Assembly (NCBI GenBank): GCA_016200005.1
Contig: JACQFP010000070.1
Coordinates: forward strand, 1 to 40,668
Reading direction: 5' to 3'
Source of the DNA: Verrucomicrobiota bacterium
GTDB lineage: Bacteria; Verrucomicrobiota; Verrucomicrobiia; Limisphaerales; PALSA-1396
Length of the DNA stretch: 40,668 nt
This document shows, piece after piece, positions 24,377 to 40,668 of the stretch. The position numbers and the translations under genes were made by a program. Position 1 is the first letter of the stretch; each line of letters begins with the position of its first letter. The notes under the pieces were generated by a model. That model saw only the letters and a list, made by a program, of their open reading frames with translations, had not been told where the DNA came from and did not search any database.

Positions 24377-27300
24377 TCACCCCTCCTGTGGGCGATGGGT
24401 TTCTTCCCTTAAAGGAAACCAGGCACAGACTTCAGTGCCTTTTTTGGGCGTGGATTTGAATTCGATCCGGCCGCCGATCAGGGAAACGCGTTCCTCCATT
24501 CCCAACAACCCCAGACTCGACGCTCCACGCACGGCGCGTTTGCGCGCGGCCACCACATCAAACCCGACCCCGTCGTCGCAGACGGCCAGCTTCAATTCCT
24601 CACCTTGTTGCCGCAACTCGAGCCGCACCTGTTTTGCTTTGGCGTGTCGCACCACATTGGTCAACGCTTCCTGGGCAATGCGGAAGCACGCTGTCACCAA
24701 CTCAGGGGACAAAGGACTGTTGAATCGCACGGCCTCAAATTGCGCGATGAATCCCGCCAATTGTGATTGACGATCCAAGTACCAGCGGAGCGCGGCGACC
24801 AGGCCCAGATCGTCGAGGATCGAAGGGTGCAGGTCCACCGACAGATTGCGCACCTGCTGCAACACTTGATCAACAATCCCGATGCCCTCTTCCAGGGCCG
24901 TCACCGCGCCGGCCGCTTCGCACTGGCGTTGGGCGGCCTGCAAATTGATTTTCAGGGCGGTCAAGGATTGGCCGATTTCATCATGCAGTTCCCGGGCGAT
25001 GTGACGGCGCTCGCTTTCCTGCGCCTCCAGCAAGCGGCGGGAAAGCGTTTGCAGCCGTTCGGAATAATCCTGCAGTTTGCTCTCGGCTTCTTTGCGTTCG
25101 GTGACATCCAATACTGTGCCGAGAAATCTAACCGGCTTGCCAGCCTCATCAAAAACCACCTCGCCCTGTTCACTCACGATACGCACCGCGCCGTCCGGCC
25201 GAATGATCCGGTGATCCACGTTGTAGGGTCGGCCTCGTTTCAACGCATCCTGCACCGCTTCATTGACGATTGACCGGTCGTCCGGATGAACGCTGTTCAG
25301 AAAGGCCTCATAGGTCGCGCCGAATTGCTCGGGTGTCAAACCGAAGATGCGATAAATCTCATCTGACCATCGCACTTTATTGGTGACCAGATCCCAATCC
25401 CAATTTCCCAGATGTGCTATCTTTTGCGCGCGCGCGAGCCCCAGTTCACTTTTGCGCAACGCCTCCTCGGCGCGGTGGCGTTCGATGACGATGCCGGCCA
25501 GGTGCGTGGCCACCTCAATCAGTTCCCGGTCGCGCGCACTGGGGGTATGCGGTTGGTGGTATAACATGGCCAGTGTGCCCAATATTTTTCCTTGGGTGGT
25601 TTTGATGGGCGTTGACCAGCACGCGCGCAACCCATGACAGTCAGCCAGCTCCCGGTAATCCGACCAAAGCGGGTCCCGCGTGATGTCGGCCACGATCACG
25701 GTTTCACGCCGATAGACCGCCGTGCCGCACGATCCGGCCTGGGGACCAATGGGCAGACCATCGACAGCCTGGTTGTAGGCTTCGGAGAGGCTTGGCGCCG
25801 CGCCATGCCGCAAACGTTTTCCATCTTCATCCAGCAGCAAAACGGAACAGGTCATCCCCGGAGATTCGGCCTCGACCGCTCGCAGCAGCGTCTCCAGCAC
25901 TTCGGCAAGAGTCGCACCTGTCGTGATCATTTCGAGCACCTGCTTCTGTCCCGCGACCCAGGCCTCGGCCCGCTTGCGCTCCGTGATGTCCCGCAGGCAG
26001 GCCATAAACACCGTGTTTCCTTTCAAACGGACGGGTGTAATGCACAGTTCCACGGGAAAAATGGAACCGTCTGCACGCATCGCGGTGATTTCGATCCGCT
26101 TGCCCAGCATTGTCGTTTCCCCGGTCGCCAGATAGCGCGCCAGACCTTGGCGATGCCGCTCACGCCAGGCGGGCGGGATGAGTTTCGCCGCCAGTTCTTC
26201 GCCCACGACTTCGTAATGCTTGTAACCAAACGTTCTTTCGGCCGCGGGATTGAAATCAATGATCCGTCCCTCCCGGTCCGCGGTGATGACGCAATCCAAG
26301 GCGGCTTCCAGAATGGCGCTCTTGCGCGATTCATTTTCGCGCAGCGCCTCCTCCGCCTGCTTGCGCTCGGTGATGTCCTGGGCCGTTCCGAGCATGCGCA
26401 ATCGACGGCCGCTTGCATCTGCCACCACTCGGCCCAACCCGTGAAGCCAGCGGAGATTGTTGTCGGGAAGCAGGACGCGATACTCGAGTTCGAACGGTCG
26501 CTGGTCCTGGTAGGCCTGTTCAATCGTCCGCTGAACGGCGCTGTAATCGCTTGGATACACGCGACGCAAAAAGTCATCGAGGTCGGTTGGCAACACTTGC
26601 CACTCGATTCCGTAGAGCCGACACAGTTCAGCCGACCAGATTACCTTGTTCGTCGCGATGTGCCATTCCCAGCTTCCCAGGCGCGCGAGCCGCTGGGCCT
26701 CCACCAGTTGAAATTCGCGCTTCTTGATTTCCTCCTCCGTCTGTTTGTCTTGGGTGATGTCCAGGCACACGCCCAGCATCTTGGCCGCCCGGCCCGCCGC
26801 ATCCAATGCGACGTGTCCCCGGGTGTGCAGGGTTCTGACGCCGCGATCGGGACGCACGATACGCTGCTCAAACACGAACGGCTCGTGATCTACAAGCGCC
26901 TTTTCCACGTTCTCTTTCACCCGCGCCCGATCCTCGGGATGGACCAGGCCCAGAAACGCCTCAAACGTCATCTGAACCCCGACCACCGCTGTCGGGGTGA
27001 ATTGGTTGTGCGAGAGGCCCAACACCCGGTAAAGCTCATCCGAACACCAGAGTTTGTTGGTCGTCACCTCCCACTCCCAACTGCCCACATGCGTCAGCCT
27101 TTGCGCCTCTCTAAGTTGCGTTTCGCGTCTCTTCATTTCCGCTTCCGCCTCCTGACGCTGGCTGATTTCAATCTGCATGGCTCGGTTGGCCCGCAGCAAC
27201 TCAGCCCTCCGCTCCTGCAAAGCCTGCTCCAGTTCCGTGCGCGCCCGCCGCAACTCCGTCTCCGCCCGCTTCCGCTCGATCGCCTGCGCCAGCACATTGG

Positions 27301-28429
27301 CAAAGGCTTGGAGGAAGTTGACGTCATCCGTTGTGAACTGGCGCGGGCGCGCGGTGTGGACTCCTAAAACACCCAACGGCCGGTTACGGCCGGGAATAAT
27401 GACCGTCATCCCGCTGATCACTCCGTGTTCCAGCAATAACGCCGGCGCGCCAAACCGCGTCTCCGTCCGCAAATCCGCCACCACCACCGGCTCATTGACT
27501 TGCAAGGTGTAGCCCGCCTGTGAGTTGTTTCCGGCAGCCACTCTGGCCTGACCTACGACTTCGCTTTTCCAACCGGCGCCGGCCCGTAAAATAAATTCAT
27601 CGCCCGCCGGCAGCAGTTCCAGAAATTTGCAGAACTCCACCCCAAGCGTTTGCACCAGAAGCGCAATTGCCTCCTGCAACAAGGCGGACAGGTTGGTGCC
27701 GGCCAGCGCGAGCTGCCCCAGTTCGGCCACCGCCGCGTGTTGGCGCGCGCGGGCTTTCAGCCCTTCTTCCCTCGCCCCGACACCGGCTGTCGGGCTGATG
27801 TTCCAGGTGAAGCAACGCGCGCGCACGAACCGGTCGTCCTCCCAGTGCGCGTCGGCCGTGATGCAGACCTGCTTCAGGGCGCCATCCGGGCAGCGCAGTT
27901 GCGTTTCATAATCGCGCAACGGTTCCCGGCACCGCAATCGTTGGAACATATCCGCCCCGCCCCCGACATCGGCTGTCGGGGTCGGGGCATACAGTTCGGA
28001 AATGTGGTGGCCGACGAATTGCGCCCGCATGCCTCCGAAGAGTTCCAACGCCGCCTGATTCGCCGACAGGATGACTCCGTCCGGCCCGACCCAATGCACA
28101 CTAACGGGGGCGTCGGCCAAGGCATCGGCCGGTTCGCACGCCGGCGGCTCGACGGTTTCCTCGGCCCGTGGAGTCTCCAGCCCTACTCCACAGGGCGGGT
28201 CAGACTGGTGGCGCGTCCCGCCGGGCCGGAGGCTGCTTTGCGCCGGTGGCTCCTCGCCGTTGCCGGGAGCGGCGAGCCGCGGTGGGCGTGGACGGGCGGT
28301 GGCGGATGGGGACGGCGGGGCGTTGAGGGACCACTGGCTTTTTCTTGCGCGCAAATGGGTTGGGCCGCGTGGGGTGCGGTTGGCGACCGTCGCGGCAACG
28401 TTTTTCGGCACCGATTTCTTCTTACGCAT
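24377..28429 (-). CDS. Large NarL-type sensor kinase with five PAS and two GAF domains
   Basis: I take the ATG at 28429 (MRKKKSVPKN). Residues 1-100 are Pro/Arg/Ala-rich and look disordered. Then follow PAS (about 105-215), GAF (230-385), PAS (435-555), PAS (565-685), PAS (690-805), GAF (820-965), PAS (980-1100), HisKA_3 with His1149 in ARELHDEIGQS, and HATPase (ACFRIAQEALTNVVRHAKA, DDGVGFD). There is no membrane helix, so it should sense a cytosolic signal. Three short palindromes inside the gene code for PTAxVG at residues about 150-157, 212-218 and 478-485 and look inserted. It lies 45 bases downstream of tRNA-Val and pairs with the NarL regulator. Confidence 0.95.
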   Translation of the reverse strand: MRKKKSVPKNVAATVANRTPRGPTHLRARKSQWSLNAPPSPSATARPRPPRLAAPGNGEEPPAQSSLRPGGTRHQSDPPCGVGLETPRAEETVEPPACEPADALADAPVSVHWVGPDGVILSANQAALELFGGMRAQFVGHHISELYAPTPTADVGGGADMFQRLRCREPLRDYETQLRCPDGALKQVCITADAHWEDDRFVRARCFTWNISPTAGVGAREEGLKARARQHAAVAELGQLALAGTNLSALLQEAIALLVQTLGVEFCKFLELLPAGDEFILRAGAGWKSEVVGQARVAAGNNSQAGYTLQVNEPVVVADLRTETRFGAPALLLEHGVISGMTVIIPGRNRPLGVLGVHTARPRQFTTDDVNFLQAFANVLAQAIERKRAETELRRARTELEQALQERRAELLRANRAMQIEISQRQEAEAEMKRRETQLREAQRLTHVGSWEWEVTTNKLWCSDELYRVLGLSHNQFTPTAVVGVQMTFEAFLGLVHPEDRARVKENVEKALVDHEPFVFEQRIVRPDRGVRTLHTRGHVALDAAGRAAKMLGVCLDITQDKQTEEEIKKREFQLVEAQRLARLGSWEWHIATNKVIWSAELCRLYGIEWQVLPTDLDDFLRRVYPSDYSAVQRTIEQAYQDQRPFELEYRVLLPDNNLRWLHGLGRVVADASGRRLRMLGTAQDITERKQAEEALRENESRKSAILEAALDCVITADREGRIIDFNPAAERTFGYKHYEVVGEELAAKLIPPAWRERHRQGLARYLATGETTMLGKRIEITAMRADGSIFPVELCITPVRLKGNTVFMACLRDITERKRAEAWVAGQKQVLEMITTGATLAEVLETLLRAVEAESPGMTCSVLLLDEDGKRLRHGAAPSLSEAYNQAVDGLPIGPQAGSCGTAVYRRETVIVADITRDPLWSDYRELADCHGLRACWSTPIKTTQGKILGTLAMLYHQPHTPSARDRELIEVATHLAGIVIERHRAEEALRKSELGLARAQKIAHLGNWDWDLVTNKVRWSDEIYRIFGLTPEQFGATYEAFLNSVHPDDRSIVNEAVQDALKRGRPYNVDHRIIRPDGAVRIVSEQGEVVFDEAGKPVRFLGTVLDVTERKEAESKLQDYSERLQTLSRRLLEAQESERRHIARELHDEIGQSLTALKINLQAAQRQCEAAGAVTALEEGIGIVDQVLQQVRNLSVDLHPSILDDLGLVAALRWYLDRQSQLAGFIAQFEAVRFNSPLSPELVTACFRIAQEALTNVVRHAKAKQVRLELRQQGEELKLAVCDDGVGFDVVAARKRAVRGASSLGLLGMEERVSLIGGRIEFKSTPKKGTEVCAWFPLREETHRPQEG
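26976..26998. repeat. In-frame palindrome, copy 1
   Basis: Arms ACCCCGAC and GTCGGGGT enclose a 7-base loop; seen as CCCCGACC-N5-TGTCGGGG it has the same shape as the other copies. On the coding (minus) strand it reads TPTAVVGV inside a PAS domain. The last PAS domain of the same protein lacks these eight residues at the same place (HNQF...TFEAFL against PEQFGATYEAFL). Confidence 0.75.
27776..27794. repeat. In-frame palindrome, copy 2
   Basis: CCCGACA-CCGGC-TGTCGGG, seven-base arms and a five-base loop. On the coding strand it reads SPTAGVG at the end of the first PAS domain, where most PAS domains have a TERKxxEE sequence. Confidence 0.75.
27954..27988. repeat. In-frame palindrome, copy 3 (longest)
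   Basis: Core CCCCGACA-TCGGC-TGTCGGGG, extended to 15-base arms with one mismatch. On the coding strand it reads APTPTADVGGGA inside the first PAS domain. Confidence 0.8.
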
Positions 28430-28474
28430 GGCTCGCTGCAATTTGTGGCCGGACTGCTTCCACCGCCGGAAATC

Positions 28475-28550
28475 TGGTGGGCGATGAGGGACTCGAACCC
28501 CCGACCTACTGCGTGTAAAGCAGATGCGCTAGCCACTGCGCCAATCGCCC
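28475..28550 (-). tRNA. tRNA-Val(TAC)
   Basis: The minus strand folds as a full cloverleaf. The acceptor GGGCGAT pairs with ATCGCCC; the anticodon stem-loop is CTGC-TTTACAC-GCAG, giving anticodon TAC (reads GUA, Val). The T-loop is GGTTCGAGTCC. A CCA end is encoded (28475-28477); the body is 28478-28550. The sensor kinase gene begins 45 bases downstream on the same strand with no clear terminator between. Confidence 0.97.
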
Positions 28551-40131: not shown

Positions 40132-40668
40132 ATGGCATTCGATTCCTTCCGTGACTTCGTTCAGCAACTCGACCGCGCGGGCGAACTCAAACGCATATCC
40201 CAACCTGTCGCCACCGAACTCGAAATCACCGAACTGGCCGACCGCGAAATGAAGACGCCCGGCGGCGGGAAGGCGCTGTTGATTGAGCAGCCCACGGTGA
40301 ACGGCGTCCTGTCCCCGTTTCCCGTTGCGATCAACACGATGGGTTCGCACAAGCGAATGGCGATGAGCCTCGGTACTAATTCTATGGATGAAGCTGCCGC
40401 TGAGCTTGGCTCACTAATGAAAGCCAAGCCGCCTACTTCGCTACGCGAAACGATGAAGCTGCTTGGTCAGGCAATGGATCTGCGCCACGCCAAACCAAAG
40501 CTCGTGAAAGATGGCCCGTGCAAGGAAGTGATTCACAAGTTCGACGCCCCGCCCACCCGCACCAAGCCGTGGCCCAAAGCGCCAAATATCAACGCTTCGA
40601 ACTCGCCCGCAACGGCGAACGTTTCTCCCTCCGAGCGTGGGCGAGCCCCGACATCCGATGTTAGGGTC
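40132..40668 (+). CDS. UbiD-family decarboxylase, N-terminal part (runs off right edge)
   Basis: The ATG at 40132 gives MAFDSFRDFVQQLDRAGELK, RISQPVATELEITELADRE and GGGKALLIEQPT, then FPVAINTMGSHKRMAMSLG. This is the start of a UbiD prenylated-FMN-dependent decarboxylase, of the kind used for ubiquinone/menaquinone precursors. Up to about PCKEVIHKFDAPPTRTKPWPK the sequence is as expected. The last 30 residues (SPATANVSPSERGRAPTSDV) do not look like UbiD and contain a copy of the palindrome found in the large kinase gene, so the frame may be interrupted by repeat DNA here. Confidence 0.85.
   Translation, partial: MAFDSFRDFVQQLDRAGELKRISQPVATELEITELADREMKTPGGGKALLIEQPTVNGVLSPFPVAINTMGSHKRMAMSLGTNSMDEAAAELGSLMKAKPPTSLRETMKLLGQAMDLRHAKPKLVKDGPCKEVIHKFDAPPTRTKPWPKAPNINASNSPATANVSPSERGRAPTSDVRV
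40645..40668. repeat. Palindrome related to the kinase-gene copies
   Basis: GCCCCGACA-TCCGA-TGTTAGGG at the window edge has the same arms (two differences in the right arm) and the same five-base loop size as the copies at 27776 and 27961. On the coding strand it reads APTSDVRV, the same frame as PTADVG in the kinase. Confidence 0.55.

Follow-up and report, generated by a model that had tools for sequence, protein, structure and literature searches.

The window analysed here comprises 40,668 nucleotides of a Verrucomicrobiota genome (contig JACQFP010000070.1; genome G000 below) and carries, on its minus strand, a gene for a multi-PAS/GAF sensor histidine kinase (24377..28429) with PAS_3, GAF, HisKA_3 and HATPase_c domains. 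Three copies of a short palindrome lie within this gene, and members of the same palindrome family occupy broken tRNA copies in this genome. The kinase starts at the ATG at 28429; the open frame listed for it has a TTG start at 28441. Copy 1 (CCCCGACCACCGCTGTCGGGG, 26977..26997, minus strand) encodes TPTAVVG in a PAS domain. Copy 2 (27775..27795, minus strand) has one mismatch, its end reading GGGC, and encodes SPTAGVG at the site where homologues carry a motif of the I-T-E-R-K type following a PAS domain. Copy 3 (27961..27981, minus strand) is perfect and encodes TPTADVG; its flanks, GCCCCG and CGGGGC, lengthen the inverted repeat. The original prediction, made from the sequence of the window, had placed all three starts within one base of these and had them reading PTA[V/G/D]VG, as they indeed do, on the minus strand in one open frame. 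The design that it gave, CCCCGACM-N5-TGTCGGGG, is exact in copies 1 and 3 and off by one base in copy 2. Shuffled windows contained on average 0.02 palindrome matches at ≤ 2 mismatches.

Copy 1 is a net insertion of 24 bases, adding eight residues relative to two further PAS domains of this kinase. The internal control suggested for this copy was sound, as the eight residues are missing at that spot from the PAS domain whose alignment starts at residue 981. The domain aligned from residue 556 also lacks eight (1 + 7), and of five further homologous stretches in the alignment, four are shorter there by eight to nine residues and one by ten. Copy 2 adds approximately three residues net, as read from an alignment anchored on I and RARQ, and the length change at copy 3 is inconsistent, both being judged against homologues of 33–41% identity. 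The same-genus kinase orthologue gave only a partial match (50% identity, query residues 224–399, E 1.8e-46), and the empty-site test was therefore moved to a CheR-type methyltransferase gene and, with other families, to transaldolase.

The genome comprises 6.54 Mb in 87 contigs; the pattern CCCCGAC-N7-GTCGGGG had 14 matches in it and the reversed control had none. About 0.1 copies were expected from the base composition of 160 kb of this genome, so the palindrome is far commoner than composition predicts. With arms one base shorter, there were 15 exact copies against ≈ 1.2 expected. Eight of the 15 lie in recognised genes, namely three in the kinase, four in the CheR-type methyltransferase gene and one in the transaldolase gene. 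Two fill tRNA-like slots on contig C20, and the remaining five are located at N-terminal extensions or upstream of genes (polyprenyl synthetase, CheW, alpha-L-rhamnosidase), in an open frame that has no Pfam match, or where there is no long frame. Hence, a special targeting of genes is not borne out, with 7/15 copies outside a recognised gene body, the two tRNA-like slots among them. The constant PTAxVG reading also failed beyond the kinase: five of the eight in-gene copies read PTxxVG, two read PDxxCRG and one reads PRQPLSG.

The palindromes look recent in coding genes, judging from the sequences of relatives. No copy was found in G001, which belongs to the same genus, is 82% complete and is the only other genome of the family examined. 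Its contig C332 is syntenic with C29 of G000 at 70–82% identity per block. At one CheR site, the 21-base palindrome stands where G001 has 12 bases, giving a net gain of nine; for the other three CheR copies and for the copy between the CheR and CheW genes, the G001 stretches are missing or unalignable. The transaldolase segment is absent from all 29 orthologues compared, which come from other families of the order (the G001 transaldolase contig ends 13 bases before the palindrome position). This segment adds three residues relative to 25 of the orthologues and four relative to the other 4; the net gain is nine bases, i.e., about 12 bases were replaced. Since copy 1 is a net insertion and the CheR and transaldolase copies are net gains of nine, the element can both insert and replace. 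All measurable length changes within genes are multiples of three. The proposed likeness to the palindromic elements of Rickettsia thus stands as regards a repeated, recent family, far above chance, with in-frame outcomes, but clean in-frame insertion holds for copy 1 and not as a general rule.

The link with tRNAs lies beyond the window and therefore escaped the original prediction. On contig C20, the palindrome is located between GAGCAG and TTGGTC, which is the anticodon-arm position of a tRNA, in two broken tRNA copies. Between these copies lie an intact tRNA-Met and a GIY-YIG reading frame that is interrupted by an in-frame stop. A tRNA copy broken by a palindrome explains the tRNA-like fragment that the tRNA finder called a gene there (‘tRNA-Pro’). 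Searching for the slot in 320 genomes of the order yielded mostly ordinary tRNA-Lys genes and some unrelated matches, together with palindrome-filled slots in G000 (twice), G186, G175, G146 and G087. When the loci were read, this slot was seen in G087, G074, G175, G186, G146 and G176, filled by palindromes whose centres were either identical or different. The module consists of a broken 5′ half with a palindrome, an intact tRNA, a GIY-YIG gene, and a palindrome with the 3′ half, although some loci lack one or more of these parts. The GIY-YIG gene adjoins the slot in G000:C20, G186:C142, G186:C61, G146:C583 and G175:C264. In G186:C142, the outer halves of the interrupted tRNA pair 7/7 in the acceptor stem, and this outer tRNA differs in sequence from the intact inner one, which is what the interruption of a resident tRNA gene by a tRNA-bearing cassette would produce.

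A profile built from five cassette nucleases (E 1e-12) matched 53 of 288 genomes of the phylum, and the 30 loci with the best matches were fetched, one of them being C20 of G000. A tRNA lies upstream on the same strand in 21 of these 30, at a distance of 2–646 bases. The palindrome is joined to a partial copy of the locus's own tRNA in 16/30, compared with 32/322 for a control tRNA of another type from another locus and 12/189 for control GIY-YIG loci without a tRNA. Three further loci (L200–L202) have longer palindromes, seen by eye. A first, motif-based scan missed many loci; the module counts rest on a coordinate-based scan. In a plain Pfam GIY-YIG search of eight genomes (20 of 23 matches), the join was found by script in 7/20, and in L145 additionally by eye; 12 of the 20 loci are without an upstream tRNA.

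The palindrome ends vary with the tRNA type. They are CCCCGA/TCGGGG at Met and Lys loci, TCCCGA/TCGGGA at Asn, Ala and two of the Pro loci, GCCCCGAC at Arg, and TTCCGG or CTCCGG at Thr. ATCCCGC/GCGGGAT, once ATCCGGC, accompanies a tRNA-Met with its anticodon at position 35, which we take to be the initiator. The nucleases group by tRNA type across families as well. On a tree of 26 nucleases, the eight tRNA labels need seven changes, which is the minimum, whereas shuffled labels need 16.9 on average and none of 200 shuffles was as low. The tree comprises 19 of the 30 profile loci and 7 of the 20 Pfam loci; of its 23 inner branches, only 6 have good support and 10 are open. Loci without a tRNA were left out, as were L195 (the same place as L152), L162 (a tandem neighbour of L146) and L220 (tRNA-Gln, no partial copy), while L221 (tRNA-Asn, no partial copy) and L200–L202 were kept, and L145 received its Lys label by eye. 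One genome, G186, contributes nucleases to the Asn group as well as to the Met/Lys part.

The cassette nuclease has a GIY-YIG catalytic domain (PF01541, above the cut-off), and the nearest solved structures, by sequence profile, are UPF0213 proteins and SLX1 structure-specific endonucleases. At L198, L205, L210 and L222, GIY-YIG genes and/or tRNA fragments are arrayed in tandem, and the fragments carry the palindrome. One cassette nuclease gave no tblastn match in plasmids and none at E 1e-5 in 50,697 phage records, and two tRNA-slot patterns occurred in 0 viral contigs; on these grounds, carriage by phages or plasmids was rejected. A GIY-YIG gene related to that of the cassette lies at the end of one IMG/VR viral contig (L278), with TCCCGACGGGTCGGGA just downstream and no tRNA called.

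Lone palindromes were compared at 43 non-tRNA sites, obtained from 50 matches in chosen loci after removal of four tRNA slots and three near-duplicates. Directly beside the palindrome stands a purine on 80 of 86 sides; the second base out is A on 39 and the third is C on 42. The tRNA slot reads GCAG/TTGG and the lone flanks are similar, so that, on the evidence of these bases, the lone copies apparently carry the signature of the tRNA slot. Complementarity of the two flanks is what a hairpin-for-hairpin exchange predicts. Placement at the apex of an existing hairpin was considered as a general rule of insertion and was retained only as a modest trend. For comparison with MITEs, which have terminal inverted repeats, target-site duplications and a related transposase, direct repeats were counted at the 43 sites. 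Direct repeats of four bases flank five sites (1.3 expected; 2/300 permutations as high), repeats of three bases flank six (4.7 expected; 99/300), and repeats of five bases flank none.

The CheR gene on C29 of G000 contains a second palindrome, CCCCGACTCAGAGTGCGGGG, three times (L031 7146, 7458 and 8215), embedded in repeats of the GTTGAGAGT type that are missing or unalignable in G001. A degenerate fourth copy in the window (CCCCGACATCCGATGTTAGGG, two mismatches, 40646..40666, plus strand) lies at the contig end, and base 1 of G001:C332 lies 13 bases beside a palindrome site; assemblies may therefore break at such places, and copy numbers may be underestimated. In G001, CCCCGATGCGCTGCGTCGGGG occurs twice (L275 1056, L273 1020) with downstream sequence common to both, as if part of a longer repeat. 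The perfect core was found in 17 stretches of the genome collection, ten with Verrucomicrobial names and seven without. Three of these seven (L045, L051 and L055 of bin-744) resemble ordinary long hairpins, the identical perfect 21-base core lying there inside longer inverted repeats. A CCCCGAA...TTCGGGG hairpin, which may be a leader or a terminator, is situated just upstream of the start of a presumably purA-like gene in two genera, with different centres (L272 454 and L274 79 in G001, probably one place on two contigs; L277 1023 in G074). The tRNA-Val(TAC) gene directly upstream of the kinase (28475..28550, minus strand) is a neighbour only and has no palindrome match inside.

In our view, the palindromes are, somewhat more probably than otherwise, copies of a short hairpin element that doubles as the end piece of a GIY-YIG cassette targeting tRNA genes, driven by the nuclease, with some hairpins spreading alone. 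The element has the core CCCCGA-N-TCGGGG, a length of 17–21 bp in the cases used, and preferred outer bases YCAR/YTGR. The full cassette would comprise a small GIY-YIG nuclease gene after an intact tRNA, flanked on one side or both by a broken tRNA in which the palindrome takes the place of the anticodon arm. SegB, a GIY-YIG nuclease of phage T6, produces sharp breaks inside tRNA genes and leads to amplification of the tRNA together with the nuclease, as reported in PMC13096335. Given this precedent for breaks in tRNA genes and the likeness to UPF0213 and SLX1, we propose that the nuclease cuts the tRNA gene of its own kind, at or near the anticodon arm. Recombination, by repair from the cassette, would then introduce the cassette and, with it, an intact tRNA as replacement. 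In the broken copy, the hairpin would remain in place of the anticodon arm, and this copy would no longer be cuttable. Sometimes, as a by-product, the nuclease would lead the hairpin to land alone at other breaks, replacing 0 to ~ 15 bases. Within genes, only frame-keeping outcomes would survive, which may be how the kinase, CheR and transaldolase copies arose.

A number of observations weigh against this nuclease-driven cassette. No GIY-YIG gene adjoins the slots G087:C18, G074:C450, G175:C14 and G176:C6, the GIY-YIG matches of these genomes lying elsewhere, and in G087 and G074 none of the matches found is tRNA-linked. The control of 32/322 keeps the link between palindrome, tRNA and GIY-YIG gene well above chance; these four slots lower our confidence. 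The join was also absent by script in 14 of the 30 phylum loci. In G186:C142, the inner 5′ end pairs with the outer 3′ end too (7/7, allowing G-T), and pairing alone is therefore no proof of which halves belong together. The in-frame stop means that the nuclease of G000 may be dead now. The flank complementarity at lone sites is only modest (9/400 within-group permutations as high). The commonest lone palindrome of G186 (CCCCGAAAGCTTTCGGGG, four copies) is not among its cassette palindromes, and the CCCGACAYC type of G087 and G074 is confined to tRNA slots.

Some of these points can be read as independent spread of the hairpins by replication errors, hairpin-mediated template switching or an unknown transposase, tRNA anticodon arms being just one kind of replaced hairpin and the GIY-YIG gene riding along. 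The slots without an adjoining nuclease and the difference between lone and cassette palindromes in G186 would then follow readily, as would the palindromes at the apex of longer inverted repeats (L118, L048, L129 and copy 3 of the window). The CheR site of G001 can likewise be drawn as a hairpin, CGCG-GACAGA-CGCG, but it is not an unusual one, since 27/200 shuffles fold as well. A bystander gene would not show the excess of joins to the own tRNA over tRNAs of another type, nor would it group by tRNA as the nucleases do, and we regard independent spread as a serious yet doubtful explanation. Rather unlikely, in our judgement, is a purely segmental amplification, in which SegB-like cutting (the precedent being that in the available text of PMC13096335) and unequal recombination amplify tRNA and nuclease without mobility between sites, the palindromes being repair scars. 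Tandem nuclease or partial-tRNA arrays, at the four loci named above and at G186:C100, are what it would produce; nevertheless, the outer and inner tRNAs of G186:C142 differ, so the inner one is no plain duplicate, and lone palindromes occur in genes on contigs other than that of the cassette.

Ordinary functional hairpins (terminators, leader hairpins or protein-binding sites) sharing GC-rich ends by chance would account for the loose-core matches of bin-744 with their long flanking arms and for the hairpin upstream of the purA-like start in G001 and G074. They would hardly account for near-identical 21-base sequences inside kinase, CheR and transaldolase genes, nor for the absence of the palindrome from the CheR locus of G001 and from the 29 transaldolase orthologues, and we consider them very improbable as a general explanation. 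Repetitive extragenic palindromes (REPs) mobilised by RAYT transposases have a published precedent within genes of a Verrucomicrobium, Opitutus terrae, where palindromes of 20–40 bp are reported in the available text of PMC3733652. The REP tags were rejected here, as GTAG stands within 8 bases of an end at 1/43 lone sites and CGTC at 2/43, and this genome holds only 15 copies; an origin of this type therefore has hardly any probability left.

Parts of the proposed cassette resemble known kinds of element. Rickettsia palindromic elements, which measure ~ 100–150 bp, encode tens of residues and are known from Rickettsiales, are likewise palindromic repeats located in frame inside protein genes; the present ones differ in their length of 17–21 bp (~ 7 residues), in occurring in Verrucomicrobiota, and in being tied to tRNAs and a GIY-YIG gene. 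UPF0213 and SLX1 proteins are the nearest solved structures, and a structure-specific endonuclease such as SLX1 would suit a hairpin substrate; to our knowledge, they are not mobile, tRNA-linked or palindrome-linked. The GTAG/CGTC REP elements with RAYT transposases, as treated in the available text of PMC3733652, are also short palindromic repeats, some in genes and some in a Verrucomicrobium, but the present family differs by the missing tag, the low copy number and the GIY-YIG association. SegB, a free-standing GIY-YIG homing endonuclease of T-even phages, shares the position beside tRNA genes, the reported breaks there and the tandem amplification. SegB differs in belonging to phages, and the available text of PMC13096335 describes no broken tRNA with a hairpin replacing the anticodon arm; the string ‘palindrom’ occurs 0 times in its main text.

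In the open-licence literature, to which our search largely confined itself, subscription papers and bioRxiv lying mostly outside, we found no description of the module under GIY-YIG with tRNA and palindromes, palindromes of Verrucomicrobia, or Rickettsia-type elements. The parts resemble known kinds, namely coding palindromes and tRNA-linked GIY-YIG homing nucleases, whereas the combination is new to us. It suggests that there is a selfish element, as yet undescribed, by which tRNA genes are broken and hairpins deposited at other sites, coding sequences among them. More tentatively, and as a possibility to which we give less than even weight, it may represent a new class of selfish element. 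Such an element would have a minimal GIY-YIG nuclease, with one subfamily per tRNA type, and would invade the anticodon arm while bringing its own intact replacement tRNA. The palindrome in the broken copy would serve as both end and immunity mark, and free hairpins would insert or replace elsewhere, adding modules of 7–8 residues to proteins.

The finding brings together two puzzling observations: that palindromes occur in protein genes, and that very small GIY-YIG genes lie next to tRNAs. For the former, we know of no established mover, and the cassette, if real, would be a concrete and testable one. It would also be a selfish element that hits essential tRNA genes and compensates with a tRNA of its own, and it would offer a way for proteins to gain short in-frame segments.

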